Origin: Platanthera guangdongensis
Lineage: Eukaryota > Streptophyta > Magnoliopsida > Asparagales > Orchidaceae
Assembly (NCBI GenBank): GCA_039583875.1
Contig: CM077150.1
Span: 174,849,499 to 174,913,498 of the forward strand
Length of the DNA: 64,000 nt
Direction of reading: 5' to 3'
Shown here: in pieces, positions 6,258 to 40,530 of the stretch
How the letters are laid out: each line of letters begins with the position of its first letter
Position numbering within the stretch: position 1 is the first letter of the stretch
Program-made: the position numbers and the translations under genes
The notes under the pieces: generated by a model
Databases searched by the model: none
The model's input: only the letters and a program-made list of their open reading frames with translations
What the model was told of the DNA's origin: nothing

Positions 6258-6790
6258 AAAAAAATCTGGAAATTCACGCACAACGGGAATCTCCTCCAAA
6301 CGTGGCAAAACAACACTAGTCCCCACATCGGAGACAAAACAAGCAAAACAGTCGGAAACAAACATCGTCCGAACACATACCGCCGAAATCCCTGGAGACT
6401 CCTGACAAGAATCACCATACACACTTCCTGGCTGACCATCGTCTTTGATAAAATCCAAGCGCTTTCCTCTGCACTGGATGATGGCGTCATAGCGGGATAA
6501 CCAATCCATGCCCAGAATGACGTCAAAATCGTCCAAATCGATCACCTTGCAATCAGCCCTTGCTAAGAAATCGCCCAACAAAATGGGACAATCAAGAAGA
6601 CCCCAGTCTGCCACCACAGAAGCACCAGAAGGAAATTTCACCAAAAACGCATTGCCCACTCGATCTGGTGTCAAATGATATCGATCCAGAAAGGTTCGAG
6701 CCACAAATGAATGGGTCGCGCCAGAATCAAAGAGAACACGCGCCCAACGGTTCTTTACCTTAAAGTTTCCTGAGATAACTTGAGGTGACG
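6249..6790 (-). pseudogene. Element B retroviral-type aspartic protease
   Basis: Cleaves Gag and Pol after particle formation. The active site is VLFDSGATHSF (about 6737-6705 on the - strand), followed by the hydrophobic [12 protein letters not shown] flap-region motif. Gag reads straight into it through QVISGNFKVKN with no interruption. That contrasts with elements A, C and F, which carry an intron-like insert at exactly this boundary. It ends in the broken frame DFFSY-stop at a homopolymer. Confidence 0.88.
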
Positions 6791-6839
6791 TCTGAGCTTC
6801 CTCTAAAGAGACCACATTCAACTTCCCTTTACCTTTGTC

Positions 6840-11380: not shown

Positions 11381-12506
11381 GGTGCGATAAATCCTCCCCT
11401 GCCGCAGGGGACACCTCCAGCCCTGAATGTGATTCCACCCCCATCGGCTCCGATCCTGTTGCAGCAGACGGAGCTGGGGCAAACTTTGACGGCCATATTG
11501 GAGGCCTTTAGGGCACAACAGGCTCCGGCTCTTCAGCCGAACCCCGGAGCAAACTGGTTGAGTGCATTCCGGGGCCTTGCCCCACCATCCTACTTGGGTA
11601 TAGAGACAGCAGTGCGCACGAAGGAGTGGTTAGACATTATGTACTAGATGTTGGTGGGAATACAGTGCCCGGTGGACCTGGCAGTATCGTTGGTGGTTTC
11701 TTGTCTGGAGTCGCATGCGAAGAGGTGGTGGAAGTCGGTGATGGGCACCACTTATGCGGGAGTGGAGATCGTGGACATTACTTGGGAGGAGTTTAGGGCC
11801 GCACTACTGGAGCATTTTGTGCCGTAGTCTGCAAGGGATGAATTGGAGGATAGATTCTTGCAGTTGAAGTAAGGGAACAGGACAGTTCTGGAATATCACC
11901 GGGAGTATACTCATTTGGCCCGGTTTGCGGATTCATACAAGCTGGATGACGTGGGTTACACCAAGAGGTTCTACAAGGGCCTCCGTGATGACCTGAGGCA
12001 GGCCCTCTTGTTCGTGTCTGATGGTACCATGGCCAGGATCTTGGAGATGGCCAATAAGCTGGAGTCGGACTAGCTTGCAGTCCGGGGCAGGAAGAGACAT
12101 GGGGATGATGCAGTGCTAGGAGGGAGAAGGGACCCGTAGAGGGGTCGGGTCATGGGAGAGAGAAGGAACGAGGATCAACCCCGCCAGGAGGATAGGCAGG
12201 AACCAAGGGAGCAGGCATTGCTGGCCCCGCAACCGCTACAGAATAGGGAGGTGCCCAGGATAGGGCGGGGACCACCCACACCACAGCGGTGCTATCACTG
12301 CCATCAGCCAGGGCACATTAGGATTAATTGCCCAACGAGGAATGGGGCCATACCTGCTGCACAGGGTGGCCCACCGGCTCACCAGATTAGAGGTGCCAGA
12401 CGTTGTCGCAGACGCAGATTTCAGGGCGGTGAACACTAGTAGGATGGGGAGCAGGTCTATGCTATGGACTTAGCGCAGCCCCGGAACCTGAACAGGGTTA
12501 TTGCAG
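11381..12506 (+). pseudogene. Element A gag
   Basis: One continuous frame recognisable despite about seven stop codons, nearly all TAG/TAA where CAG/CAA is expected. Capsid motifs: KEWLDIMY, AKRWWKSV, ITWEEFRAALLEHFVP, RFYKGLRDDLRQAL. A single CCHC knuckle CYHCHQPGHIRINC lies at about 12293-12334. The frame continues to GEQVYAMDLAQPRNLNRVIAG, where it reaches a splice-donor-like G|GTATGA. The stop pattern suggests long residence in methylated chromatin. Confidence 0.82.
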
Positions 12507-12598
12507 GTATGAGAGTAATTTTTAGTATTGGAAGAATAATTACACAACCTAGGTTAGAAAACTTTAGACCTAAGCTGTTTTTCCTTTAACTAATTTAG
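12507..12598 (+). other. Intron-like insert (92 nt) between gag and protease of element A
   Basis: Begins GTATGA and ends with a pyrimidine-rich run and TAACTAATTTAG. The Gag frame runs into it and ends in TAA near its 3' end. Removing the 92 nt joins VIAG to IVMACDKPARTLFDTGA in frame (phase 1, inside a Gly codon). Elements C and F have inserts of 76 and 78 nt at the same codon and phase. Splicing is inferred from sequence only. Confidence 0.7.
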
Positions 12599-13461
12599 GA
12601 ATAGTGATGGCGTGCGACAAACCTGCCCGTACACTGTTCGACACGGGGGCATCACACAACTTTGTGTCGGAGGATTTCAAGGATCTAGGCCAGATTCGAT
12701 ATTATACGGGAGATGCCAGGAGGGTGCGTCTCCCCAATGGGATGGAGATCCAGTCCACAGAGAAGTGCCTCCTGATGGTTACCATAGACTGATTAACACT
12801 CGAGAACCCAGGGACGATCCTGAAAATGCCGGACTTCGACCTTGTCTTGGGCATGACATGGCTTGTCTGGAACCATGCCCAGATTGACTGCCCGGCGAGG
12901 AGGGTCGTGATGAGACACGACGACACTTATGCAACATTCGAAGGTACTACTCCGGTTTCACGCCGCCTTCTTTCATCTATTCAGGCCGTCAAGGCCCACC
13001 TACATGGAGACGAGGTATATCAGGTGCTGTTCGAGATGACTGAGGAGAAGGACCTAATTGTTAGCATTCCGGTGGTCTGTGACTATGCCGATGTATTTCC
13101 AGAGAAGCTGCCATGACTGCCTCCGCAGAGGGAGAATGACTTTCAGATTCAGTTGGTTCCAGGGGCAAAGCCGGTATCCAAGGCCCCTTATCGGATGGCC
13201 CCAAGGGAGCTGGCAGAATTTCGGACACAGTTGCAGGAGTTGGTGGAAGAAGGATTCATCAGACCGAGTTCCTCGCCATGGGGAGCTCCGGTCCTATTCG
13301 TGAAGAAGAAGGATGGCACCCTTCGCCTGGGCATCGACTATCGAGCACTAAACAGGCTGACCGTCCGAAATACCTATCCGCTCCCAAGGATAGATGAGTT
13401 GTTCGATCAGCTGGAGGGAGCCCATTGTTTCTCGAAGCTGGACTTGAGGTCAGGCTACTAC
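12599..13461 (+). pseudogene. Element A protease and N-terminal reverse transcriptase
   Basis: Protease active site TLFDTGASHNFVS, then LVLGMTWLVWNHAQIDC, then reverse transcriptase blocks [60 protein letters not shown]. It ends abruptly inside that last block because element C is inserted at 13462. Two in-frame TGA codons occur (near 12790 and 13115). The catalytic DD block and everything after it are outside the window or lost. Confidence 0.85.
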
Positions 13462-15748
13462 TGTAACGCCCCGAAACTCAAAGGAGCAAAGGGGGACATT
13501 TTGGGCCAGTTTGAGTTCTGGCTGAAGGCACGCGGCCTGGGACACGGGCGTGTCCCAGGGCATGTTAAGCCTGTGTCGACACTAAGGCGCGAAGTCGACA
13601 CTTTGGTCTCAACATTGTGTCGAGACTGGGCACACGGCCTGCGACACGGGCGTGTCGCAGGGTCGTGTCGACCCGTGTCGACACTTAGCCGCGAAGTCGA
13701 CACTGTGCTGTGATATTGTGTCGAGACATGGCACACGACCTACGACACGGGCGTGTCGTAGGGCGTGTCAGCTTGTGTCGACACTCGTCCCGCGAAGTCG
13801 ACACTTTGGTGTCGACAATGTGTCGAGACATGGCACACGGCCTGCGACACGGGCGTGTCGCAGGGCGTGTCGACCCGTGTCGACACTTAGCCACGAAGTG
13901 TCGAGACCGTGTACACGGCCTGGAGCCCAGGCGTGTCAAGGTGACACGGGTATGGACACGGGCGTGTCCTAGAACCCGTGCAGTGCTCGGGTTGAAAATG
14001 GGGAAAAATCATGGGGTACACGGCCGGCGACACGGCCGTGTCAGGTGGAACACGGGCATGTCAGCTCGAACACGGGCGTGTTCGATACCCGTGTGAGGTT
14101 CCAGGTGATCCGATTTTGACGGCGAATGAGGCACACGGCCCTGGACACGGGTGTGTGCCAGGCCGTGTTCGGTCCAGATTGGGCATTTCAGTCCCGAATC
14201 GAAGCCGTTCATTTCTTTGACTGAAGATCCAACGGCTGGGGGTTGTTCCTGAAGGGATATACCCGGGTTTTGACTTAGAAAACCCTCACTTTTTCTTAAG
14301 TGATCTCTTTCTAAAGTCTTAGAGAGAGAGGAGAGATAAGTGAAGAAGAAGGAGCTAGATCCGCCATTGGAGGAGCTTCGGAGCTCCGAATCGCAAGCCA
14401 ACTCCGGATCCGCGGAGGCAACGCTAGTGCGGTCATTTCCATCCGATTACTTTCCGATGGCGTCAAAGAGGAACGCAAGGGTAACGATCCTCAACTTGAG
14501 CATGAGTCGCTCTCTTTCTTAGCATAGGAAGCCCGCTCTCGCGAGTTTGTGGAGAGTTGGAGGCGTTCCTTCGGGTAGATATGTGAAGTCCCCGTTGTTT
14601 AGAATTCGTATGTGAGAACAGACATAGGCATGATGTGTGAAGCCTACCCGGACAAGTTAGTCTGGATCGGTGATGTTGCATTGCATAAGGCCGGAGAAGA
14701 CTCCGTGCTATTGGTTGTTTTTCGGGTTTTCTACGCGGTAGATTGCAGCAGGGAGCCTTGGGAACTAACCCAAAGGTGCACCCGGAAAACTGGGCGGATA
14801 CGAGATTTTGCCAACTTGGTGGCTTGAAAGCCAACTTGAACATAACCGGGTTATGTATCATGTGATGGAAATGGGACTCAGGAGAAGTTTGACCTGCGCA
14901 TATGGTTTAAATTACCGTTGCGGGCGCATATGGTTTAAATTACCGTTGCGTTGTGAGCACGGGTTAGATGGAACCGTACCCACTCTATGTCGTTCGGATT
15001 AGGGCCGTTGGCATAGATGAGGGTCTTCGGCGGTCTATGGTTTTAATTACCGTGACCCATGCCAGGAAGACAAACTGCTCATTGTTTGGCCGTCCAAAGG
15101 GGATGGTGGTGAGTCGGCAGACTTAGACTGCGTTCACCAAGAATGTGCCCTGAGTGCACGGGGTGTGTGGCCGTTGAGCCTCCGCCTGTGATGAAATGGC
15201 TATATTTACATTGCTCGCTTATGCTAATGAAATGCAGGGAAGGAGCATCGCCGCCCCGAGTTGGGGGCGGGATCGTTATAATTTGGTCAGCATTGCTGAC
15301 CGTTGCCTTGTTTTGCCACCGTGCGGTGGTTTGTTGCTTGCAGGTGCAGCTGGACTAAGCGGTCAATAGCGGGCTAAAGCCCTTTTTGCAAAGCCGGCCC
15401 TCGAAGGCCCGAATGGAAATGTTTATTGCTTTATTCATGTATGACCGGCCTGCGTGCCGTGGTTTGTAAATCATGTAACAGTCAAGTGAAACATTTTGTA
15501 AGGCCTTAAGGCTTGTTTTGAGTATTTTGTAATAACATTCCTATTTTCGTATTAGTGGACATTCATTCTTGTTGCTGGTTTCTTGTTTACAACCTTTATA
15601 AACTGCTTCCGCTAGAATGCTCTGTGTAGGACGTTGAGATTGGTTGAATGGTTTCCATAAGTAACCGCCCGGTCTGTCTGTGGTATATGGCGTCGGGCCC
15701 CGGCCGGACCTACTGCTATATACTATGCGACGGATAGGGGGTGTTACA
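13462..15748 (+). mobile_element. Element C 5' LTR (2,287 bp)
   Basis: Starts TGTAACGCCCCGAAAC and ends GGGGGTGTTACA, immediately before the primer site. The first 700 bp carry the palindrome array, and the 3' part is shared with the LTRs of D, F and the inverted fragments. The flanking 5 bp at the insertion are ACTAC; the other flank cannot be checked because the 3' end is lost. Confidence 0.9.
13536..13864. repeat. Array of four ~102-bp units each centred on a 24-nt palindrome
   Basis: Palindromes at 13536-13559, 13638-13661, 13739-13762 and 13841-13864, spaced 101-102 bp. The core is GACACG-GG-CGTGTC and outer arms differ but remain complementary: CCTGGG/CCCAGG, CCTGCG/CGCAGG, CCTACG/CGTAGG, CCTGCG/CGCAGG. 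Units also share a GTCGACACTT segment. In the 3' LTR (20913-20936) the third unit is CCTGCG/CGCAGG, so both arms changed together. Confidence 0.85.
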
Positions 15749-15751
15749 ATT

Positions 15752-15762
15752 TGGTATCAGAC
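15752..15762 (+). other. Element C primer-binding site
   Basis: TTGGTATCAGA, three bases after the LTR end, matches the complement of the initiator Met tRNA 3' end. Confidence 0.88.
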
Positions 15763-15972: not shown

Positions 15973-17115
15973 GTGACCCGAAGTGGTGTTGGGCCGTCAG
16001 AACGCCGAGTTTCTGAGGCAAGTAGTGCACCGGATGTTGCTCCTGCAACACCTCTATCGGCTGAGAATATTCGATTGGTGGCTGAAGCGGTGTTGGCCGT
16101 GATTAATGCGCAGCCTGGAAGGCAAACGCAGCAGCCCGCTCCTATGATGGAGCAAGTACCTCTGCAAGAGGCTGAGCCGAGGAGAGTGGAGCAAGTGGTT
16201 GTTGAACCAATAGTGCCAAGGAGGGCAACTGAGAGGCAGCTAAAGCATGTAATGAGCTTTAACCCTCCGCTATTCTCGGGGTTGGGAACCCCATCTCAGG
16301 CTGAAGACTGGCTCTCCAGGGTAAAGAGAGTCATGACAGCGACGGAGACGGAGGAGTGGCAAATGACCACCATCGCTACGCTCCTTCTGGACGGTGAAGC
16401 GAGGATGTGGTGGGAAGGATTGGAGCTGCACTTACTGAGGGGTAGACAACTTGGTGATGTCTCGATGGAGGAGTTCTCGAGATTATTTTTGGCTAGATAC
16501 CTCCCTTCGACGCAGAAGATAGCGTTGGAGAATGAGTTCCTGAAGTTGGTACAGGGTGAGAGGAGCGTGGATGAATATCTCCACGAGTTTACTCGTCTAA
16601 GTCATTATGCTAGCGCCACCATCATGGATGAGGAGCACAAGACTAATCGCTTCTATGAAGGGTTGAGAGACGAGTTGAGGTTGCTACTCTCGGGGCCGAT
16701 GATGCAGGGTTTCTTAACCTTGGTCAATACTGCCCGGTCCTTGGAGAAGGATATGAAGAATGTGCAGCAAAGAAAAGCTTGGGCGAGAAGAAATCTGGGT
16801 TCAAAGTGCCGACAACTTCAAAGTTTGGCTATCAAAGATTCTTTAAGAAGCATAGGACTTCGGGTACAGCTCCTTCTGGTGCTTCTGGGGCGACTACGAG
16901 TCGGACCCCGGGCGTGTGCTTTACATGTGGAAAGACGGGGCATTTCGCCCGTGACTGTTGGAGCGGACGTCCTAAGACCGAGAGGAAGCCGGGAGCTACT
17001 TATGAAGAGAAGGGCAAGGCGGTGGAGTCGACCGCATCCCATTATGCTCCGGCCCAACCAAGGGTCTACAATCTTGGCCAACAGGAGGTCATTAAACAAG
17101 CTGATGTGGTGACAG
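15973..17115 (+). pseudogene. Element C gag
   Basis: The frame opens with GTG at 15973 (VTRSGVGPSERRVSEASSAP) directly after ACTATAG, with an in-frame TAG just upstream and no in-frame ATG until about residue 58. The capsid domain has QAEDWLSRVKRVM, ARMWWEGLEL, MEEFSRLFLARYLPSTQ and RFYEGLRDELRLLL. A frameshift near 16775 moves the frame to the single CCHC knuckle CFTCGKTGHFARDC and the tail RVYNLGQQEVIKQADVVTD. The unspliced frame ends GAT ACG GTT TAA, four codons past the insert boundary. The conserved N-terminus in F argues that the missing ATG is real biology or a shared loss. Confidence 0.85.
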
Positions 17116-17191
17116 ATACGGTTTAATTTATAGCAAGTCAATTTATTTAAATACTTGTTATGCACATGTTACCTTACCACTACTTGTTTAG
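17116..17191 (+). other. Intron-like insert (76 nt) between gag and protease of element C
   Basis: Same position and phase as in A and F. It ends with CTTACC, a T-rich run and TTTAG. The expected GT at the 5' end reads AT (CAG|ATACGG), so this copy's donor looks destroyed. Removal joins VVTG to [17 protein letters not shown] in frame. Confidence 0.65.
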
Positions 17192-18813
17192 GATTTGTAT
17201 TGATTTGTGAAAATCCGGCACGAGCACTCTTAGATACGGGAGCCTCACACTCCTTCTTGTCCGAAGGATTTATATCACGCATCGGAGTCCCTTCTTCGAT
17301 GGCGAAGGATAAGTTGGATGTGTTGTTGCCCAATGGGTGTTCGATGCGAGCGGATAGGATCTGCGATGTTAAAGTTCGTATTGGGGAGCAGGAGTTCGAC
17401 CTGCAGGCGTCTTTACTTCCGTTGGCGGAGTTCGACGTCATTTTTGGCATGGACTGGCTCTCGGAGCAGCAGGCCCATATAGATTGTGGTAGCAAGGAAG
17501 TCAAGCTGGGAGCAAGTCGTGAGACGACTTTTACGGGCTTAAAGGGGTCGAGCAAGACGTTGATGTCTGCTCTTCAGGTGGTGAAGGCGGTTCGTGCTGG
17601 AGCAGAACTGTTCTTTACACTAGTGGAGGTTGCAAAGCCGAAGCCCGCATTGGATTGTATTTCAGTGGTATCGGAATACCCTGATGTGTTCCCCGCAGAT
17701 CTTCCTGGAGCCCCGCCTCAGCGGGAGATAGATTTTACGATCGAGCTAGTGCCAGGTGCAAAGCCTGTGTCACGATCTCCGTATCGGCTAGCGCCTAAGG
17801 AAATGGCGGAGCTGAAAGTTCAACTGCAAGAGTTGTTGGAGCAAGGGTATGTGCGCCCGAGTTCTTTGCCTTGGAGCGCACCGGTCCTCTTTGTTAAGAA
17901 GAAGGACGGAAGCTTGAGGCTTTGTATTGATTATCGGGAGCTAAACAAGCTAACTGAGAAGAACAAGTACCCGATCCCTCGGATTGATGATCTCTTTGAT
18001 CAGTTAGTCGGGTCGACGGTGTACTCGAAGTTGGATCTCAAGGCTGGGTACTATCAGCTGCGGATAAGGGAGAGTGATATCCCGAAGACAGTGTTTAGTA
18101 CGAGGTACGGGCATTATGAGTTTACGGTCATGCCGTTTGGGCTGACGAATGCGCCGTCAGTGTTCATGGATTTGATGAACAGGACGTTCAGGGAGTACTT
18201 GGACCATTTTGTGATCGTCTTCATCGACGATATTTTGGTGTACTCGCAAAGTGAGGAAGATCACTTCAAGCATCTTCATTTGGTGTTGGAGACGCTAAGG
18301 AGAAATCAGTTGTATGCCAAGTTCTCGAAGTGCGAGTTTTGGCTATCCTCAGTGGCGTTCCTCGGGCATATAGTAAGTGGAGAGGGTATTGCTGTGGATC
18401 CGGCGAAGATTGTTGCGATACGGGAGTGGCCTGAGCTTGCTACGGTAGCAGAAGTCCAGAGCTTTTTGGGGCTTGCCGGCTATTATAGGCGCTTCGTAGA
18501 GAACTTCTCGCGGATAGCGTTACCTCTCACTACTTTGACGAAGAAGGAGCATAAGTTCGTTTGGACGCCGGAGTGCACGCGAGATTTTGAGGAACTGAAG
18601 TGTCGGTTGACCACGGCGCCTGTGCTGAGTTCGCCATGTGGAACCGAAGGCTATGAGATATATAGCGATGCTTCGGGCAGTGGTTTGGGTTGCGTGCTAC
18701 TGCAGCACGGAAGCGTGATAGCTTATGGCTCGAGACAGCTAAAAGTGCACGAGAGGAATTATCCGGTCCATGACTTGGAGTTAGCGGCCGTGATTTTTGC
18801 CTTGAAGCTGTAG
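17192..18813 (+). pseudogene. Element C protease, reverse transcriptase and start of RNase H
   Basis: About 540 uninterrupted codons. Protease [12 protein letters not shown] and [16 protein letters not shown]. Reverse transcriptase [62 protein letters not shown], catalytic FIDDILVYS near 18220, [18 protein letters not shown]. RNase H begins with [11 protein letters not shown] and stops at TAG 18811-18813, where F reads LWRHY, so TGG became TAG. This is the best preserved polymerase in the window besides B. Confidence 0.9.
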
Positions 18814-20636: not shown

Positions 20637-21362
20637 TGTAACGCCCCGAAACTCAAAGGAGCAAAGGGGGACATTTTGGGCCAGTTTGAGTTCTGGCTGC
20701 AGGCACACGGCCTGGGACACGGGCGTGTCCCAGGGCGTGTCAAGCCTGTGTCGACACTAAGGCGCGAAGTCGACACTTTGATCTCGACATTGTGTCGAGA
20801 CTGGGCACACGGCCTGCGACACGGGCGTGTCGCAGGGCATGTCGACCCGTGTCGACACTTAGCCGCGAAGTCGACACTGTGCTGTGATATTGTATCGAGA
20901 CATGGCACACGGCCTGCGACACGGGCGTGTCGCAGGGCGTGTCAGCTTGTGTCGACACTCGTCCCGCGAAGTCGACACTTTGGTGTCGACAATGTGTCGA
21001 GACATGGCACACGGCCTGCGACACGGGTGTGTCGCAGGGCGTGTCGACCCGTGTCGACACTTAGTCGCGAAGTGTCGAGACCGTGTACACGGCCTGGAGC
21101 CCAGGCATGTCAAGGTGACACGGGTATGGATATGGGCGTGTCCTAGAACCCGTGCAGTGCTCGGGTTGAAAATGGGGAAAAATCATGGGGTACACGGCCG
21201 GCGACACGGCCGTGTCAGGTGGAACATGGGCGTGTCAGCTCGAACACGGGCGTGTTCTATACCCGTGTGAGGTTCCAGGTGATCCGATTTTGACGGCGAA
21301 TGAGGCACACGGCCTTGGACACGGGCGTGTGCCAGGCCGTGTTCGGTCCAGATTGGGCATTT
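20637..21362 (+). mobile_element. Element C 3' LTR, first 726 bp
   Basis: Matches 13462-14190 closely and contains the same four palindromes. It stops at GGGCATT where an inverted LTR end (TGTAACACCCC) begins. Confidence 0.9.
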
Positions 21363-25659: not shown

Positions 25660-27790
25660 GCATGTCTAGCCCCACCCCCGAGAGGATCTCCTCATCTAGG
25701 CTCCCACTAGCGGGATGGGTCGAATGTGCCTCGGTGGCAAGAAGGAACCAACCCCCGAGAGGATCTCCTCATACAGGCTCCCACTAGTGGGATGGGTCGA
25801 ATGTGCCTCGGTGGCAAGAAGGTTCCAACCCGGAAAGGATCTCCTCATCCAGGCTCCCACTAGCTAGATGGTCGAGTGTGCCTCGGTAGTAAGTTCTTAT
25901 CCTGAGAGGATCTCCTCATCCAGTCTCCCACTAGCTGGATGGGTCAAATGTGCCTCGGTGGCGAGAAGGTTCCAGCCCCGAGAGGATCTCCTCATCCAGA
26001 CTCCCACTAGCTGGATGGGTCGAATGTGCCTCGGTGGCGATAAGGTTCCCACCCCGAGAGGATCTCCTCATTCAGGATCCCACTAGCTGGATGTGTCGAA
26101 TGTGCCTCAGTGGCGAGAAGTTTCCAACCCTGAGACGATCTCCTCATCCAAGCTCCCACTAGCTGGATGGGTCGAATGTACCTCGGGGGCTAGAAGGAAC
26201 CAACCCCGAGAGGATATCCTAATCCAAGCTCCCACTAGCTGGATGGGTTGAATGTGTCTCGGTAGTAAGTTCTTATCCCAAGAGGATCTCCTCATCCAGG
26301 TTCCCACTAGCTGGATGGGTCGAATGTGCCTCTATGCCGAGAAGGTACCAACCCCACAGAGGATCTCCTCATCCAGGCTCGCAATAGCTGGATGAATCGA
26401 ATGTGCCTCGGTGGCGAGAAGGTTCCAACCCCGACAGAATCTCCTCATCCAGGCTCTCACTAGCTGGATGGGTCTAATGTGCCTCAGTGGAGAGAAGGAA
26501 CCAACCCCCGAGAGGATCTCCTCATCTAGGCTCCCACTAGCTGGATGGGTCGAATGTGCCTCGGTGGCGAGAAGGTTCCAACAACGAGAGGATCTCCTCA
26601 TCCAGGATCCCACTAGCTGGATGGGTCGAATGTGCCTCGGTAGTAAGTTCTTATCCCGAGAGGATATCCTCATCCAGGCTCCCACTTGCTGGATTGTTCG
26701 AATGTGCCTCGGTGGCAAGAAGGTTCCAACCCCAAGAGGATCTCCTCATCCAGGCTCCTACTAGTTGGATGGGTTGAATGTGCCTTAGTGGTGAGAAGGT
26801 TCCAACCCTGAGAGGATCTCTTCATCCAGGCTGCTACTAGCTGGATTGGTCGAATGTGCCTCGGTGGAGAGAAGGTTCCAACACCGAGAGGATCTCCTCA
26901 TCTAGGCTCCCACTAGCTGGATTGGTCAAATGTGCCTCGGTGGCGAGAAGGAACCAACCCTGAGAGGATCTCCTCATCGAGTCTCCCACTAGTTGGATGG
27001 GTCGAATGTGTCTCGGTAGTACTTGTCCCAAGAGGATTTCCTTTTCCAGGCTCCCACTAGCTAGATGGGTCGAATATGCCTCGATAGAGAGAAGGAACCA
27101 ACCCCCGAGAGGATCTCCTCATCTAGGCTCCCACTAGCTTGATGGGTCGAATTTGCCTCGATGGCGAGAAGGTTCCAAACCCAAGAGGATCTCCTCATCA
27201 ACTCTCCCACTAGCTGGATGGGTCGAATGTTCCTTGGTGGAGAGAAGGTTCCAACCAAGAGTGGATCTCCTCATCCAGGCTCCCACTTGCTGGATGGGTC
27301 GAATGTGCCTCGGTGGTAAGAAGGTTCCAACCCACAGAAGATCTCCTCATCCATGATCCCACTAGTTGGATGGGTCGAATGTGCCTCGGTGGCGAGAAGG
27401 AACCAAGCCCGAGTGGATCTCCTCATCCTGCATGCTCCCACTAGCTGGATTGGTCAAATATGCCCCAGTAGTAAGTTCTTGTCCCGAGAGGATCTCCTCA
27501 TACAGGCTCCCTCTAGTTGGATGGGTCGAATGTACCTCGGCAATGTGAAGGAATCAACCCCCGAGAGGATCTCCTCATCCAGGCTCCTGCTAGTTGGATG
27601 TGTCGAATGTGACTCAGTGGCAAGAAGGCTCCAACCCCGAGAGGATCTCCTCATCCAGGTTCCCACTAGCTGGATGGGTCGAATGTGCCTCGGTAGTAAG
27701 TTCTTGCCCCGAGAGGATCTCTTCATCCAGACTCCCACTAGCCGGATGGGTCGAATGTGCCTCGGTGGCGAGTAAGTTCCAACCCCAGAG
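25660..27790. repeat. Minisatellite, 72-77-bp units, about 28 copies
   Basis: Each unit contains GAATGTGCCTCGG, a variable middle, GAGAGGATCTCCTCATCCAG and CTCCCACTAGCTGGATGGGTC. Two types alternate irregularly: a 76-77-bp form with GAGAAGGTTCCAACCCC and a 72-bp form with TAGTAAGTTCTTATCCC. Unit length is not a multiple of three, and open frames through it have no coding character. A polypurine tract and LTR start follow, so it is probably an element's 3' untranslated region. Confidence 0.88.
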
Positions 27791-27925
27791 GGTATCTCAC
27801 CACCCAGGCTCCCATTAGCGGGCATGGCAGGTTGACCCCTCGGCGATGTTAAGTGAATTCTACTCAGAGTGGATCTCACCACCCAGGGTCCCATTAGCTG
27901 GCATGGCAGGTTGACCCCTCGAAGA
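27791..27925. repeat. Diverged 82-bp dimer at the minisatellite edge
   Basis: Two copies of a related unit (TCTCACCACCCAGG, CCCATTAGC, GGCATGGCAGGTTGACCCC) spaced 82 bp. The shared CTCCCAxTAGC core suggests an offshoot of the main array. Confidence 0.65.
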
Positions 27926-28140: not shown

Positions 28141-29393
28141 TGAAAGAGACAGATCTTAACTGAACTAATTAGAGTAAAATCATAGCACAGAATAAAAAAA
28201 GAAGATGAAGCAACCAGAAGAGACACAAGGATTTTATAGTGGTTCCCCAAATCTAGGTAGTCCACTCTTCTACCACCCTGGTAGGAATCTACTCAGGGTT
28301 TTGATCAGGTGACTGCCACTAATGGGTTTTGATCAGGTCCCCAAAAACCAACTCAAGTCTTTTGGAAGGAGACTTGCAACCAGGAATCACTTTTGAAGGG
28401 AGATGACAAACCTTTATACAGGAGGTGGTGAGAGAGTGATTTTATCTTCTCTATCAACAATCAGAGAGAGATTCAAGTGGATATGATGTTAGCAAATAGC
28501 TCCCCCTGAGATATTGATTGGTTCAGGTTAGCAGGAAGCTTTGCTGCAGGGTGATAGGCCTTCACAGTGATGATGTCTCCAGCAGGCTTCTTAGACTGAT
28601 ATTGATTTGTTGTCTCTTGAAAGCCTGGAGCTGATGAAGAACTCTGATGATTATTTTCTTGGTGATGCAGAGTTCCTTTCTTTGTAAAAGACCTTTTTAC
28701 TTCTTCTTGTGTTCTGGGTGTATTCTGTCTGTCTGTTCTATATTCTTCCCTTTATTTGAATTCTGTAGATTTTATGGCGGAAGAAACATTCCCGAGAGTG
28801 AAGATCCTTTGAAAATTGATCCTTACTTAATTCTTCTATAACTGTCTATTTGAATGACTATTTTCACTGGGAATGTTGACTGTAATTAATCCGTAATTAG
28901 TTCTGCCAACTGTTACTGATTGCTCAGAAATCATCGACCTGAACTTTCGTCGAGTTCAACAATGGTCGACCTGAGTTCGACATTCGTCGAACTCAGCTAG
29001 ATTCATCGAGCTGAATATCTTGCCTGCATTCGTCGACCGAAGCTTCCAGTTCGTCGAGCTCAGTTTCTATTTCGTCGAGCTGATAAACTGACTTGCTAAT
29101 TTTATCGAGCTGAGCAAGTGTTGTCCACCAATCGTCGACCTGAGTTCGAAGTTCGTCGAACTCAGCTTCTGTCATCATTCATTGACTTGAGCTTTCGTCA
29201 TTCGTCGAACTGCGTTCGACGATCGTCGAGTTGATTCTCTTACTTTGTCTTAACTGCATTACTTTCAGCAATTCTGGAGCTCTTCTGAATGACCTGTCCG
29301 GAAATAGTCCTATGACCCATGACTATACATGTTGGGTCATTCTAAGCAACCCTAATAGTGTTCCTTGCCTAAATCCTAACTGGGGTTCTAACA
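28141..29393 (-). mobile_element. Element E 3' LTR (1,253 bp)
   Basis: On the - strand it starts TGTTAGAACCCCAG and ends GTCTCTTTCA. It closely matches 30778-32010. 28928-29240 is rich in TCGTCGAxCTGAG motifs. Confidence 0.88.
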
Positions 29394-29407
29394 ATCTCCC
29401 CCTATTT
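29394..29407 (-). other. Element E polypurine tract
   Basis: On the - strand AAATAGGGGGAGAT abuts the LTR start TGTTAG. Confidence 0.75.
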
Positions 29408-30777: not shown

Positions 30778-32010
30778 TGAAAGAGACAGATCTTAACTGA
30801 ACTAATTAGAGTAAAATCACACCACAGAATAAAGAAAGAAGATCAAGCAACCAGAAGAGACACAAGGATTTTATAGTGGTTCCCCAAATCTGGGTAGTCC
30901 ACTCTTCTACCACCCTGGAAGGAATCCACTCAGGTTTTTGATCAGGTGACTTCCACCAATGGGTTTTGATCAGGTCCCCAAAAACCAATTCAAGTCTTTT
31001 GGAAGGAGACTTGCAACCAGGAATCACTTTTAAAGGGAGATGACAACCCTTTATATAGGAGGTGGTGAGAGAGTGATTTTATTTTCTCTGTCAACAATCA
31101 GAGAGAAGATTCAAGTGGATATGATGTTAGCAAATAGCTCCCCCTGAGATATTGATTGGTTCAGGTTAGCAGGAAGCTTTGCTGCAGGGTGATAGGCCTT
31201 CGCAGTGATGATGTCTCCAGTAGGCTTCGTAGACTGATATTTATTTGTTGTCTCTTGAAAGCCTGGAGCTGATGAAGAACTCTGACGATTATTTTCTTGG
31301 TGATGCAAAGTTCCTTTCTCTATAAAAGCCCTTTTTACATCTTCTTGTGTTCTGCGTGTATTCTTTCTGTCTGTTCTATATTCTTCTCTATACTTGAATT
31401 CTGTAGATTTTATGGCGGAAGAAACATTCCCGAGAGTGAAGATGCTTTGGAAATTGATCCTTACTTAATTCTTTTGTAACTGTCCGTTTGAACGGCTATT
31501 TTCACTGGGAATGTTGACTGTAATTAATCCGTAATTAGTTCTGCTAACTGTTACTGATTGCTCAGAAATCATCGACCTGAACTTTCGTCGAGTTAAACAA
31601 TCGTCGACCTGAGTTCGACATTCATCGAACTCAGCTAGATTCGTCGAGCTGAATATCTTGCCTGCGTTCGTCGACCGGAGCTTGCAGTTCGTCGAGCTGA
31701 GAAACTGACTTGCAAATTTTTTCGAGCTGAGCAAGTGTTGTCCACCAATCGTCGACCTGAGTTCGACATTCGTCGAACTCAGCTTCTGTCATAATTCTTC
31801 GACCTAAGCTTTCGTCGTTCGTCGAACTGCGTTCGACGATCGTCGAGCTGATTCTCTGACTTTGTCTTAACTGCATTTCTTTCAGCAATTCTGGAGATCT
31901 TCTGAATGACCTGTCCGGAAATAGTCCTATGACCCATGACTATACATGTTGGGTCATTCTAAGCTACCCTAATAGTGTTCCTTGCCAAAATCCTAACTGG
32001 GGTTCCAACA
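30778..32010 (-). mobile_element. Element E 5' LTR (1,233 bp)
   Basis: Matches the left LTR; on the - strand starts TGTTGGAACCCCAG. A TATA box (CTATATAAAG, complement of 31049-31058) places the transcription start just left of it. The TCGTCGA motif array lies at 31565-31850, upstream of that TATA box in U3. Confidence 0.88.
31049..31058 (-). promoter_or_regulatory. TATA box of LTR E
   Basis: CTATATAAAG on the - strand. The other LTR has the damaged form TGTATAAAGG at the matching site (about 28413-28422). Confidence 0.65.
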
Positions 32011-32070
32011 ATCTGCATTATATACAAGTAGGGGGAGGAAAAATTTGCGTAGCTTGATAATGCTTGTTGT

Positions 32071-33075
32071 ATCTTCTGAGGGGGGAGGGGGGGTTGTGCG
32101 GCGCGAGTCCGGCACCTGCCCCAGCATCCTCTCAGGGGGGCAGGTGCGGCGCGAGCCCGGCACCTGCCCCGGCCTCCTCACAGTGGGGTGGGTATGGTGC
32201 GTGGCCGGTACCAGCCCCAGCCTCCTCTCAAGGGGGCGGGTGTGGCGTGTGCCCGACAACCGTCTCGACCTCCTCTCAGCGGGGAGGGTGCAGTGCGAGC
32301 CCGACACTCTCCCCGGCCTCCTCTCAGGGGGGGCGGGTGCGGTACGATTCAGACACCCGCCCCAGCCTCCTCTCAGGGGGCGGGTGCGGCGCGAGCTCAA
32401 CACCCGCCCCGGCCTCCTCTCAGGAGGAGGGTGAGGCGCGAGCCCGGCACCCACCCCAGCCTCCTCTCAGGGGGCGGGTGCGGCCCAAGACCGGCACCCG
32501 CCCCGGCCTCCTCTTAGGGGGTGGGTGTGGCACGAGGCTGGTACCAGCCCCGACCTCCTCTCAGGAGGGCGGATGCGGCGTGAGGCCGACACCCGCCCTG
32601 ACCTTCTCTTAGGGCGGCAGGTGCGGCGCGAGCCCGACACCCGCACCGGCCTCCTCTCAGGGGGGCAAGTGCGGCGTGAGCCCGACACCCGCCCCAATCT
32701 CCTCTCAGGGGGGAGTGTGTAGCACGAGCCCGACACCCGCCCGGTTTCCTCTCAGGGGGGCGGGTGCGGCGCGAGCTCGACACTTACCCCAGCCTCCTCT
32801 CAGGGGGAGGGTGTGGTGCGAGCCCGACACCCGCCCGAGCCTCCTCTCACGGGGGTGGGTGCGACGCGAACCCGTCACCCTCCTTGGCCTCCTCTTACGG
32901 AGGCTGGTTTGCCGCGAGCCCGGCACCCGCCGCAGCCTCCTCTCAGGGGAATGGGTGCGGCGCGAGCCAAACACCCACCCCGGCCTCGTCTCAAGAGGGC
33001 AGGTGCGGCGCTAGCCCAACACCCGCCCCGGCCTCCTCTCCGGGGGGCGTGTGCGGCGCCGCCCGGCACTCACCC
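32071..33075. repeat. GC-rich 48-bp tandem array, about 20 copies
   Basis: Units contain CGGCCTCCTCTCAGGGGG, CGGGTGCGGCGCGAGCC and CGACACCCGCCC. The spacing of CCTCCTCTCA is 47-49 bp (32221, 32269, 32317, 32366, 32413). Because 48 is divisible by three, several frames on both strands stay open and give 16-residue repeats, but codon use and neighbours give no support for a protein. It may be the 3' untranslated region of an element. Confidence 0.85.
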
Positions 33076-33128
33076 TGACCTTCTCCACTAAGGTCTCACT
33101 CGGCTTGAGCAGTTCGCCCGAATTGAGC

Positions 33129-35933: not shown

Positions 35934-37080
35934 GTGACCAGGAGTGGTGCAGGGCCGTCAGAACGCCCGGTTTCTGAGGCAAGTAGCGCACCAAATAATG
36001 TGCCTGCAGCACCTCCCTCAGAAGAAACCATAAGATTGGTGGCTGAAGCGGTGTTCGCTATGATAAATTCCCAGACTGCATGGCAAATGCTGCATCCTGC
36101 CCCTGCAGTGGATCAGGTATCGCTTCAAGCGGCGGAACCGAGAAGGGTGGAGTAAGTGGTAGTGGAGCCATTGGTACCTAAGAGAGCAACCGAAAAGCAG
36201 CTCAAGCATGTTATGGGCTTCAATCATCCAGTGTTATCGGGGATGGGAACCCCATCCCAAGCTGAGGATTGGCTCTCCTGAGTAAAGAGAGTCTTGACAG
36301 CTATTGAAACAGAGGAGTGGCAGAAAAACATCATAGCTACTTTCCTATTTGACGGAGATGCAAGGCTGTAGTGGGAAGATTTAAAGCTACATCACCTGAG
36401 GGGAAGGCAACTCACGGACGTCTCGATGGAAGAATTTTCGAGACTATTCTTGTCAAGGTACCTTCCCTCGACTCAGAGGATCTCGATGGAGAATGAATTC
36501 CAGAAGTTGACACAAGGAGAGAGTAGCGTGGACGAGTATCTCCATGAATTTACATGGTTGGGTCGGTATGCTAGCTCTACTTTCGCGGATGAGGAGCATA
36601 AGACAAACCGTTTCTATGAGGGTCTAAGGGATGCCCTAAGGATACTGCTCTCGAGGACTATGACGCAGAGCTTCTTGACCCTGGGCAATATGGCCCGGTC
36701 TTTGGAGAAGGACCTGAGGAATGTGCAAGCGAAGAAAGACTCAAGTGCAAAGGTGACAGAGTTCAAAATGCCTAACTCCTCAAAATCTGTATTCCGTAAG
36801 TGGAATAAGAAAGCTAGGACTTCGGGTCCAACCCCTTCTTCTGGTGCATCTGGGGCGACTACAGTCCGAACCCTTGGCGCGTGCTATAATTGTGGAAAGA
36901 TGGGACACTTTGCCCGAGATTGTCGAAGCGGACTTCCAAAGTCCGAGAGAAAGCCGAGAGCAACCTATAAGGAGAAGGGCAAGACAGTGGAGTCAACCGC
37001 ATCCCACTATGCTCCAACTCAACCTAGAGTCTATAATCTTGGCCAGCAGGAGGCCATAAAGCAAGCAGATGTGGTGACAG
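35934..37080 (+). pseudogene. Element F gag
   Basis: Same frame throughout, with three stops: CAA to TAA at RVE-stop, an Arg codon to TGA at DWLS-stop, and TGG to TAG at ARL-stop. As in C the frame opens with GTG right after GACTATAG and has no ATG. Motifs: QAEDWLS, MEEFSRLFLSRYLPSTQ, RFYEGLRDALRILL, one CCHC knuckle CYNCGKMGHFARDC, and the tail NLGQQEAIKQADVVTG. The unspliced reading ends GGT ACT GTT TAA. Confidence 0.85.
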
Positions 37081-37158
37081 GTACTGTTTAAATTTATAGC
37101 AAGTCAGCTTGAAATACTTGTTACCTTGCGCATGTTAGCTTACTACTGTTTGTATTAG
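37081..37158 (+). other. Intron-like insert (78 nt) between gag and protease of element F
   Basis: CAG|GTACTG donor, CTTACTAC branch-like sequence, TTTGTATTAG acceptor. It contains the Gag stop TAA at 37089-37091. Removal joins VVTG to FVLICDNLAREFFDTGA in frame, same codon and phase as A and C. Confidence 0.7.
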
Positions 37159-38719
37159 GCTTTGTTTTGATTTGCGATAATCTGGCGAGAGAATTCTTTG
37201 ATACGGGGGCTACGCACTCCTTTTTGTCTGTAGGATATATATCGCGCATCAGAGTACCTACTTCGATGGCAAAGTACAAACTGGATGTGTTGTTGCCGAA
37301 TGGGTGTTCAATACGCACGAATAGAGTCTGTGGCATAAAGATACGGATTGGGAGTCAGGAGTTAGATTTGTAAGCGTCGTTACTGCCGCTAGTGGAATTT
37401 GACATGATTTTGGTATGGACTGGCTCTCGGAGCAGCAGACATACATTGATTACAATCGCAAGAAGGTCAAAGTGGGAACTGGTCGTGAGACGACATTTGC
37501 GGGCTTGAAAGGGTTGAGCAATACTTTGATGTCTGCACTTCAGGTGGTTATGGCAGTTCATACTGGTGCAGAGCTGTTCTTCATGCCAGTGGAGGCTTCA
37601 AAGCCTAAGCCTACTTTGGACAACATCCCAGTGGTATCCGAGTACCCTGACGTGTTCCCTGGCGACCTTCCTAGAGCCCCACCTCAGTGGGAGATTGACT
37701 TCACTATTGAGCTAGTTCCACATACGAAACCTGTGTCACGCTCCACGTATCGGTTAGCGTCTAAGGAGATGGCGGAACTGAAGGTTCAACTTCAAGAGTT
37801 ATTGGAACATGGTTATGTGCGTGCAAGTTCGTCGCCTTGGAGCACACCGGTCCTTTTTGTGAAGAAGAAGGATAGAAGCTTACGACTTTGTATCGATTAT
37901 CGAGAGATGAACAAGTTGACGGAGAAGAATAAGTATCCGATCCCAAGGATTGATGATCTGTTTGATCAGTTAGTTGGGTCATCGGTGTACTTGAAATTGG
38001 ATCTTAAGTCTGGATATTATCAGTTGAGGATAAGAGAAAGTGATATCCCCAAGACAGCATTCAATATGAGATACGGGCATTATGTGTTTACCGTCATGCC
38101 TTATGGGCTTACTAATGTGCCATCAGTGTTCACGGACCTGATGAACAAAACTTTCAGAGAGTACCTGGACCACTTCGTGATCGTCTTTATCGACGATATA
38201 TTGGTGTACTCACAGTGTGAGGAGGATCAATTTAAGCATCTGCATTTGGTGTTGGAGACGCTGAGGAGGAAACAAATGTACGTCAAGTTCTCCAAATGCG
38301 AGCTTTGGTTGTCCTCAGTAGCATTCCTTAGTCACATAGTTAGTGGAGAGGAAATTGTGGTGGATCAGGCGAAGATAGTTTCTATACGGGAGTGGCCTGT
38401 ATTGTCCACGATAGCGGAAGTCCGGAGTTTTCTGGTGCTTACCTGCTATTATAGGCGCTTCATGGAGAACTTCTCGCGGATAGCGTTACCCCTCACGACT
38501 CTGACGAGGAAAGATCACAAGTTTGTTTGGATGCCTGAGTGCGCACAAACTTTCGAAGTGTTGAAAAGTCGGTTGACCACAGTGCCAGTTCAAAGTTCTC
38601 CGAGTGGGACCGAAGGCTTTGAGATCTACAGTGATGCTTTGGGAAGTGGTTTGGGTTATGTTCTGCTGCAGCATGGAAGTGTGATAGCTTATGTCTCGAG
38701 TCAGCTGAAGGTCTATTAG
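37159..38719 (+). pseudogene. Element F protease and reverse transcriptase
   Basis: Protease FFDTGATHSFLS, a stop at 37371, then a frameshift near 37410 before [13 protein letters not shown]. Reverse transcriptase is long and open: [53 protein letters not shown] and [12 protein letters not shown]. Several conserved residues have changed (FLGLAGYY to FLVLTCYY), showing relaxed selection. Confidence 0.85.
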
Positions 38720-40530
38720 AGGAATTATTCGGTTCAGGACTTGGAGTTATCGGTCATGATATTTGCCCTAAAGCTGTGGAGGCATTACCTATACGGTATG
38801 AAGGTCAATATCTATACCGACCACAAGAGCCTGAAGTAATTGTTGGATCAAAAGGATCTAAATATGCGGCAGCGGAGATGGATGGAGTTCCTGGGGGACT
38901 ACACATTCAAAATTCATTATGTACCTGGGAAATGTAATGCGGTTGGCGATGCGTTAAGTCATAGGACCCCATCACAAGCCAACTGGTTGTCGGTTCATGA
39001 CGAGCGCTTGATTCGGGAGTTGGAGGCGTTAGAGATCTCTTGTGTTGACAAGCAGACTAATGCTGAATCGTAGTTGAACTGGACATAAGTTCAGTATGAC
39101 CTGGCTGATTAGATTCGGCGGGCTTTGGATTTGGATAATAACATGAAGTAAATCTTGGTTGAGGCTTTGGATGGGTCAAATTCCCAATTTGATGTTGTGG
39201 ATGGATTGTTGTGGAAGGACAGTCGTCTGTGCATCCCAAATGTGGGTAAATTGCGGGTGGATTTGATGTACGAGGCTCATTAGACCATGTACTTGATTCA
39301 TCCAGGGAGCACGAAGATGTACCGTGATATGAAGAAGTTGTTCTGGTGGCCAGGACTTAAGAAGGACGTGGCACTTTATGTGGTGAAGTGTCAAACGTGT
39401 GCCTTAGTGAAGGGGTGTGCCAAAAGCTGGAGGTTTCTTGAAGTCTTTGCCTATCCCTGAGTGGAAGTTCGACAATATTGCAATGGACTTTTTGCATGGG
39501 TTGCCAAGGTCGTAGAAGGGAAATGACGCCATCTGGGTGATCGTATACCGTTTGATGAAGTTGTCGCACTTCATTCCAAATAGGAAGGATGATTCGGTGT
39601 AGAAATTGACAAAACTCTATGTGGATAACATTGTTTGACTTCACGGTGTGCCCCGCCACATCGTGAGTGACCGAGATGGGTGGTTCACATCCAATGACTT
39701 GAGGTTGGTACATCAGATGTTGGGAACCAAGCTGAGTTTCAGCATGGCCTTTCATCCGCAAACGGATGGTCAGACCGAGAGAGTCAACATGATGATGTAA
39801 GACATGCTTCGCTTGTGCGTCTTGGATTTCGGGAAGCAGTAAGAAGATCACCTGTACTTGGTGGAATTTGCTTATAACAATAGCTACCAAGCGAGCATTC
39901 AAATGGCACCCTTTGAGGCCCTTTATGGTAGGAGATGCCGCACGTCGTTGTCATAGTTGGAAACGGGTGACTCGAAGCTGTACAAGCGGCAAGAAGTGGA
40001 AGATTCAACCTCGTTGGTACAAACTATTCGAGAAATATTGTTAATGGCTCAGGACCACCAAGCTAAATACTATAATGCCAAGCAAATGAACGTTAAGTTC
40101 GTTGTTGGTGACTGGTGTATTTGAAAATTAAGTCGTTCAAGGGCGTCTCACGGGTACGGTGCTTGAAGAAGCTAAGCCCGAGGTACCTTGGACCGTTTGA
40201 GGTTCTGGAGAGGATTGGCGAAGCAGCGCATCAGTTAAAGATATCAGTGGAACTGAGTGGTCAACACGACGTATTCCACATATCGGTGTTGTGAAAGGTG
40301 GTGCACGAGCCTTCACAAGTGATTGCAGCCGATCAAGTACCGGTTGATGATGGGTTGATAATGAAGGTAAAGCCCGTTCGTATTGAGGACTCGGAAGTCA
40401 AGCGATTGTGTAACAAAGACATCAGGATTGTCAAGATTTGTTGGGAAAATTGCGATCGAGAGGAGCTCTCGTGGGAGAGAGAGAAGACCATGCTGGAGGA
40501 TTACATAGAGTTATTCCACCCAGGTACCGT
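38720..40530 (+). pseudogene. Element F RNase H, integrase and chromodomain-like end
   Basis: Heavily broken. [13 protein letters not shown], [49 protein letters not shown], then frameshift near 39405, [15 protein letters not shown], [33 protein letters not shown] further frameshift near 40120 precedes PVRIEDSEVKRLCNKDI and SWEREKTMLEDYIELFHPG. More than ten stops occur. Confidence 0.82.

Follow-up and report, generated by a model that had tools for sequence, protein, structure and literature searches.

How does a retroelement whose gag frame is halted by a stop codon ahead of its protease come to make Gag-Pol? The question is raised by three elements, A, C and F, of the window analysed here (the whole stretch of 64,000 nucleotides from the orchid Platanthera guangdongensis), in each of which a short insert separates gag from protease; in a fourth, element B, the frame continues through the same point. 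The Ty3/gypsy order GAG-PROT-RT-RH-INT is present, as judged from the domains that Pfam recognises downstream of gag in C (protease, RT, RNase H, integrase zinc, rve and SH3_Tf2-1, the Pfam matches of the C ORFs including a single RNase H family) and from its gag, recognised by similarity to the predicted Gag P0021 (Retrotrans_gag) of the orchid Platanthera zijinensis. Membership of the elements among the chromoviruses is likely; the Chromo match itself is weak, scoring 18.7 bits (E 0.0016) for C and 21.4 for B, short of the cut-off of 25.1 in each case. The features concerned are these:

6740 to 6800 (approximate), reverse strand: gag-protease point of B, a continuous frame without insert
11402 to 12506, forward strand: gag frame of A, a decayed copy interrupted by internal stops
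12507 to 12598, forward strand: insert of A, a candidate intron of 92 nt, GT...AG, phase 1 in a Gly codon
12507 to 12512, forward strand: putative 5' splice site of A, CAG/GTATGA, 7/9 against the consensus
12570 to 12598, forward strand: 3' end of the A insert, CTAAG (a possible branch region), a pyrimidine run and ATTTAG/G
12599 to 13461, forward strand: protease of A and the beginning of its RT, interrupted at 13462 by element C
13462 to 15748, forward strand: 5' LTR of C (TGTAAC...GTTACA), followed at 15752 by the PBS-like TGGTATCA
15973 to 17126, forward strand: Gag region of C, frameshifted within gag and ending in DVVTDTV and a stop inside the insert
17116 to 17191, forward strand: insert of C, 76 nt, AT...AG, homologous to the insert of F
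17192 to 18813, forward strand: protease-RT frame of C after the insert, open from 17134
20637 to 21362, forward strand: stretch of the 3' LTR of C, sharing 96.8% identity with the 5' LTR across 725 nt
35937 to 37091, forward strand: Gag frame of F, with internal stops, ending in ...DVVTGTV at the TAA of 37089-37091 within the insert
37081 to 37158, forward strand: insert of F, a candidate intron of 78 nt, GT...AG
37159 to 38776, forward strand: protease-RT of F after the insert, with a frameshift near 37409

Elsewhere in the window, self-comparison brought out two long tandem arrays (25671-27842 and 32086-33088, with spacings of about 75 nt and about 48 nt) and a direct repeat of about 1.2 kb (28141-29397 against 30778-32014, 93% identical).

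Read directly in the window, the insert of A runs CAG/GTATGA...TTTAG/GA, between exon ends ...GTTATTGCAG upstream and GAATAG... downstream, and that of F runs CAG/GTACTG...TATTAG/GC, between ...GTGACAG and GCTTTG...; in C the initial GT is replaced by AT, which leaves a dead donor. All three interrupt the same Gly codon in phase 1, after its first base, and their lengths are 2 (A), 1 (C) and 0 (F) modulo 3, each protease frame resuming in phase after its own insert. The gag frame of A runs into the insert and halts at the TAA at 12587, and those of C and F halt at the fourth codon inside (17124 and 37089, respectively); B reads on without insert as ...SPQVISGNFKVKNRWARVLFDSGATHSF. Direct reading thereby confirmed much of what a sequence-only reading had made out: the 92-nt insert of A with its G/GTATGA start and TTTAG end, the gag frame terminating within it at TAA, the common codon, phase and residues modulo 3, and the uninterrupted frame of B.

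The inserts also stand apart in composition. Their AT content is 67-72%, and no other segment of equal length in the gag-pro-RT region is as AT-rich as the insert (0/1788, 0/2685 and 0/2548 for the inserts of A, C and F). At 76-92 nt they exceed the minimum length of plant introns, about 70 nt, and against the 5' splice-site consensus CAG/GTAAGT the donors of A and F score a moderate 7/9 and 6/9. Branch points usually lie some 18-50 nt from the AG; our scan found CTTAC about 15-16 nt upstream of the AG in C and F, and in A strict YTNAY matches only 5-9 nt from the AG and none at the usual branch distance, the 3' end of that insert consisting of CTAAG, which may be the branch region, then the pyrimidine run and ATTTAG/G. 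When A, B, C and F were scanned for GT..AG segments 60-150 nt long that passed thresholds for donor match, AT content and pyrimidines, F returned its insert alone, A its insert and one longer segment with the same acceptor, and B no passing segment; C returned three other segments, one with the acceptor of its insert, the insert itself being out for want of a GT. The inserts had no Rfam match at gathering scores, and fold z-scores of -0.17, -0.96 and +1.74 (-0.39 for an extended F stretch) indicate no unusual RNA fold. The AT-richness of the inserts and the outcome of the GT..AG scan exceed chance.

How many independent cases the window holds is a separate matter. The sequence-only reading had counted three matching inserts, a count that does not survive comparison: C and F (78% over 5.7 kb) belong to a single family and have homologous inserts, in which 63 of 73 aligned columns agree (a score reached by 0/1000 shuffles), so that the window, by these alignments, offers two insert-bearing families, A and C/F, and not three independent cases. 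Of the difference in length and sequence once ascribed to the C and F inserts, length stands (76 against 78 nt) and sequence does not; the AT donor of C had been overlooked. Alignment of the A insert with that of C or F is no better than with shuffles (227/1000 and 304/1000 reach the score).

The C and F inserts are more alike than are the third codon positions of the two elements (519/851; Fisher p 7e-6, or 2e-4 with the four gaps counted). Constraint, our first idea, is kept as an observation only, with transversions alone giving p 0.08 and an LTR comparison p 0.10; nor is the likeness taken as constraint, because recombination could also produce it, the flanks of C grouping with insert-less copies. 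Set beside those flanks, the likeness may reflect constraint or exchange between lineages. At 17116-17117, where C has AT against the GT of F, the altered G is paired with a C in CTG (CHG) context, and the loss of this donor would fit methylation-driven decay. In F, the start of the insert (37078-37097) matches the start of the downstream exon (37156-37175) at 12/20 positions, a likeness that 4/2019 of the other 20-mers within 1 kb equal; the corresponding comparison gives 7/20 in both C and A, no such resemblance. An origin of the F insert by tandem duplication is thus a possible reading of the sequence.

The two insert families recur throughout the genome (4,245,561,818 bases in 274 contigs). 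A query containing the insert, and blind to its absence, gave 40 scored A-type copies (the window and 39 others) out of 997 first-look candidates, in which GT and AG are each kept in 40/40 and the length of 92 nt in 38/40. With an insert-blind query (exon 2 alone), the 40 matches listed comprise 17 known copies (the window and 16 fetched) and 23 newly read; the full insert is present in all 40 listed, and none of them shows a partial deletion. The newly read copies keep GT in 22/23 and AG in 20/23 (one donor and three acceptors mutated), and in three of the 23 (L129, L131 and L134) the insert is lengthened to 119 nt by about 27 additional nt close to its start. Family-wide conservation of GT and AG had been proposed earlier as a check against neutral decay. 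In the A-type copies the dinucleotides are kept in 40/40, yet conservation of the insert at A/T sites shows no excess over the same-query flanks (0.9955 against 0.9957 and 0.9961), and at C/G sites a small one (0.974 against 0.957 and 0.955). The A insert being hardly better conserved than its flanks, retention of GT and AG in near copies says little by itself, and within-A conservation was dropped as proof of selection.

For the F type, 39 copies other than the window were listed, from 6259 first-look candidates, and we read 29 of them. The donor GT is kept in 26/29 and the acceptor AG in 25/29; the insert measures 78 nt in 24 and 77 nt in five; and the gag stop stands at the fourth codon in 27, the frame being open there in two. 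These figures bear on a translational alternative, under which Gag-Pol would be made in the F type by read-through of the stop and in the A type by -1 frameshifting, with the insert as a coding linker. In keeping with it, the F insert is 78 nt long, seven of 11 F-type copies have a single TAA from gag to protease in one frame (one of 11 has none), the fourth-codon stop is kept as just described, and in A the pol frame opens at 12574, before the gag stop at 12587, over a T-run. Yet the five 77-nt copies, which include two sisters (94/86), have protease out of frame; gag stops before pol opens in C of the window, and F of the window has two stops in the way; the RNA shows no unusual fold; and neither read-through nor frameshifting predicts copies that lack exactly the insert. 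Read-through might suffice for many copies with the 78-nt F insert, though not for those with 77 nt, and frameshifting for A at most. We give this alternative very little chance. Frameshifting as a mechanism common to all three elements was ruled out, the lengths differing modulo 3 and gag stopping before pol opens in C and F.

Copies that lack exactly the insert are in fact numerous. A junction pattern of 29 nt of both flanks of A, with at most 3 mismatches, detected 47 insert-less copies (reversed control, 0), and the corresponding C/F pattern detected 208 sites (control, 0). In the copies translated, Gag passes in frame into protease at the junction in 10/10 on the A side, some with later stops or shifts, and in 20/20 on the C/F side. 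Where exact C/F flanks lie 0-30 nt apart, the range covered, 79/79 show the 4-nt spacing of clean loss, these junctions being related by descent and so not 79 events; the same exact-flank kind of test in A gave 2/2 at the clean-loss spacing.

In a flank-only tree of 87 A rows (40 insert-bearing and all 47 insert-less), 40 insert-less copies form one subfamily (among L068-L072 and L092-L128), and the other seven (L063-L067, L106 and L109) sit among the 40 insert-bearers. The fewest changes on this tree are seven, of which at least three are forced by well-supported branches, inner support being low and the bootstrap unsettled. Over 18 diagnostic sites the seven scattered copies carry the allele of the insert-bearing group in 124/126 cells, including the sites nearest to the junction (16 nt to its left and 5 nt to its right). 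On the C/F side, a 51-row tree unites the F-type insert-bearers in one group (100/99) and nests C of the window, which has the insert but a dead donor, in a close-knit set of nine copies without insert (100/100); the tree took in 20/208 insert-less loci, found by the insert-less pattern, and it shows mixing rather than frequency.

The sequence-only reading had named insert-less copies with a continuous frame as the case that would make the inserts random indels. Such copies exist, and their pattern is not that of random indels, with 79/79 exact C/F junctions and seven scattered A copies; exact boundaries and genome-wide copies rule out a random decay indel. A more specific form of deletion deserves weighing, in which the insert would be a non-intronic spacer, lost at times between the AGG/AGG direct repeats at its ends. 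AGG does flank the insert in A and F, and deletion by this 3-bp microhomology would give the same product. Counting the AGG pair, however, repeats of 3 bp or more that could take out most of the insert number 52 pairs in A and 47 in F, and yet the C/F junctions with gaps of 0-30 nt are exact in 79/79 (many sharing descent) and no partial deletion occurs in the 40 insert-blind A matches listed. Deletion of this kind also leaves the GT...AG termini, the AT-richness and the common codon and phase unexplained, and we hold it to be very improbable.

It is about as improbable that the insert-less state is ancestral and that the scattered insert-less A copies received an empty junction by recombination, through template switching or gene conversion. 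Retroelement RNAs recombine, as is generally known, insert-less lineages are plentiful, and the C-F insert likeness (63/73, against 519/851 at third positions) is what exchange would give. Against this, the insert-bearing alleles at -16 and +5 in the seven scattered A copies argue that the empty junction was not imported by a long conversion tract; the converted tracts would need to be about 20 bp or less.

Repeated loss of exactly the GT...AG segment in two families points instead to reverse transcription of spliced RNA, and the exact insert-less genomic copies imply, on genomic evidence, that the segment is probably removed from RNA. We consider it highly probable that the insert is a small, facultatively spliced U2-type spliceosomal intron that separates gag from protease in one clade of Ty3/gypsy elements, probably chromoviruses, with members in this genome and in P. 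zijinensis. The intron reading proposed from sequence is strongly supported by genome-wide copies; the accompanying claim of three different inserts falls, C and F being one family and the donor of C dead.

The scheme that we envisage would run as follows. Unspliced RNA would be translated to Gag only, the gag frame stopping within the intron, and spliced RNA would join Gag in frame to protease and Pol. Unspliced RNA would serve also as the genome, and it must be what is usually packaged, since copies still bear the intron. Now and then spliced RNA would be reverse-transcribed, giving copies that lack exactly the intron, some of which seem to have founded insert-less lineages that multiplied; for these, a Gag-only RNA may be supplied in trans or may be dispensable. 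We infer use of the spliceosome in living cells, and the choice of packaged RNA, from these sequence patterns. A role of splicing in setting the Gag:Pol ratio is plausible, given the free Gag expected from unspliced RNA and a predicted P. zijinensis Gag that ends at the same ...VVTGTV. The 40-copy insert-less A subfamily appears to have multiplied without the intron, which argues that the intron may not be strictly needed by every lineage; insert-less lineages are perhaps helped in trans.

A broader joint reading is speculative, and we would sooner doubt than accept it as a whole. By it, intron-bearers would make free Gag, and their insert-less descendants, making only Gag-Pol, would multiply on the Gag of others; splicing would thereby keep producing the element's own parasites, each loss of the intron being an escape, and the intron itself may stem from a small tandem duplication of coding sequence containing AGG.

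Relatives outside the genome bear on the same point, the nearest named proteins being those of P. zijinensis. The predicted Gag P0021 (KSP39_PZI007980) ends in ...DVVTGTV, exactly where the gag frame of F ends, and the protein with the next locus tag number, P0002 (KSP39_PZI007981), corresponds to half of Pol, beginning beyond the protease motif; P0028 (KSP39_PZI014228) ends in ...EVITGTCKIY, five residues beyond the common Gly. P0026 (KSP39_PZI020165), also of P. zijinensis, is one protein across the gag-protease point (...QVIAGIVFISGKPARTLFDTGA) and may represent either a spliced gene model or a copy without the insert. Twelve others of the 31 proteins fetched, none from P. zijinensis, cross the point unbroken, as gene models or predictions that weigh less than DNA. 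Read-through at the DNA level is seen in L001, L002 and L003. Scans of viral_contigs and one scan of genome_contigs gave no relative; a further genome_contigs scan gave four loci (L001-L004) filed as bacterial but with the look of plant contaminants, of which L004, with a match covering only 102 residues, was left out. Plant-type retroelement sequence (L001, L002, L003 and the protein P0014) is filed under assemblies of Microbacteriaceae, Labilibacter, Robertmurraya and Listeria welshimeri, where it is likely to be contamination. In a protease-RT tree of 25 rows, from which rows of fewer than 180 residues were dropped save P0026, which was added, a single clade (96/97) takes in A, C, F and the P. 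zijinensis proteins P0001, P0002 and P0026, and leaves out B and the 18 other rows; an RT-only tree, without rows of fewer than 100 aligned residues, groups A, C and F at 85/86.

Two annotated P. zijinensis Pol halves begin at MAKDKL, downstream of the insert, and might suggest that translation of Pol is initiated independently there, at a start codon of its own. That start falls after the DTG catalytic motif, and the pol frames of C and F hold no ATG ahead of DTG (A has one), so a separate Pol start would lose the protease motif in C and F. Among the 29 F-type copies an ATG before DTG is lacking in 19 and occurs once in each of two, the motif being mutated in eight. We regard a separate start as extremely unlikely.

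The intron that we favour has partial counterparts among known elements. Ogre and EVADE are given as notable plant exceptions with introns in the available text of a 2025 review (PMC12786077). Ogre (Ty3/gypsy, Tat lineage) likewise has a spliced intron, but at another site: in Ogre/Tat the gap lies between PROT and RT, whereas here the insert precedes the DTG motif of protease, and PR-RT is continuous in C. The present intron would lie between Gag and protease, and measures 76-95 nt in copies seen (plus the 119-nt form); the elements that contain it have an SH3_Tf2-1 domain, and their match to the chromodomain is weak.

A closer parallel in position is BARE1 (Ty1/copia), for which the available sections of the report (PMC3735527) describe a facultatively spliced intron of 104 nt where protease begins, its junctions being CAG/GTAT and CAG/GA; like A (CAG/GTAT...TAG/GA), it has a small GT...AG intron at the gag/protease boundary. 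Its logic, as given in those sections, is opposite and its superfamily different: unspliced BARE1 RNA yields Gag-Pol, and the spliced form, its frame broken, encodes just Gag (PMC3735527). No such loss of the pol frame is seen here, the insert-less copies being in frame in 10/10 on the A side and 20/20 on the C/F side. By the same sections, DNA copies of spliced BARE1 RNA could not be amplified (PMC3735527), whereas genomic copies lacking exactly the insert are present here. For EVADE/EVD and the short-GAG isoforms of other Ty1/copia elements, excerpts of the literature describe splicing that shifts the Gag/Pol balance (PMC12786077; sunflower, PMC7730604; triticale, PMC7765848); in EVADE/EVD splicing makes the Gag-only RNA, and here it would join Gag to Pol. 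CRR and Bagy2 are other plant Ty3/gypsy elements with spliced RNA, CRR losing RT and Bagy2 making an env RNA (PMC3735527, available sections), and neither case is one of an in-frame gag/protease intron. An orchid Ty3/gypsy element is described as a single gag-pol ORF in the portion available of its report (PMC9289625). In titles and abstract openings among the matches listed, a scope outside which most subscription literature falls, we found no report of an in-frame gag/protease intron in a chromovirus.

If the intron reading is true, these elements would be a second plant Ty3/gypsy lineage, after Ogre, to use splicing for the whole polyprotein, with the intron at the gag/protease boundary. 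The DNA itself would record the splicing, in copies without exactly the intron, as a natural counterpart of the marker-intron experiment that, in the available text of the review, demonstrated retrotransposition via RNA (PMC12786077). How often spliced RNA is packaged, and whether loss of the intron helps or harms the element, are questions that the finding would open, and annotation of such elements as "two ORFs" or "frameshifted" may overlook working introns.
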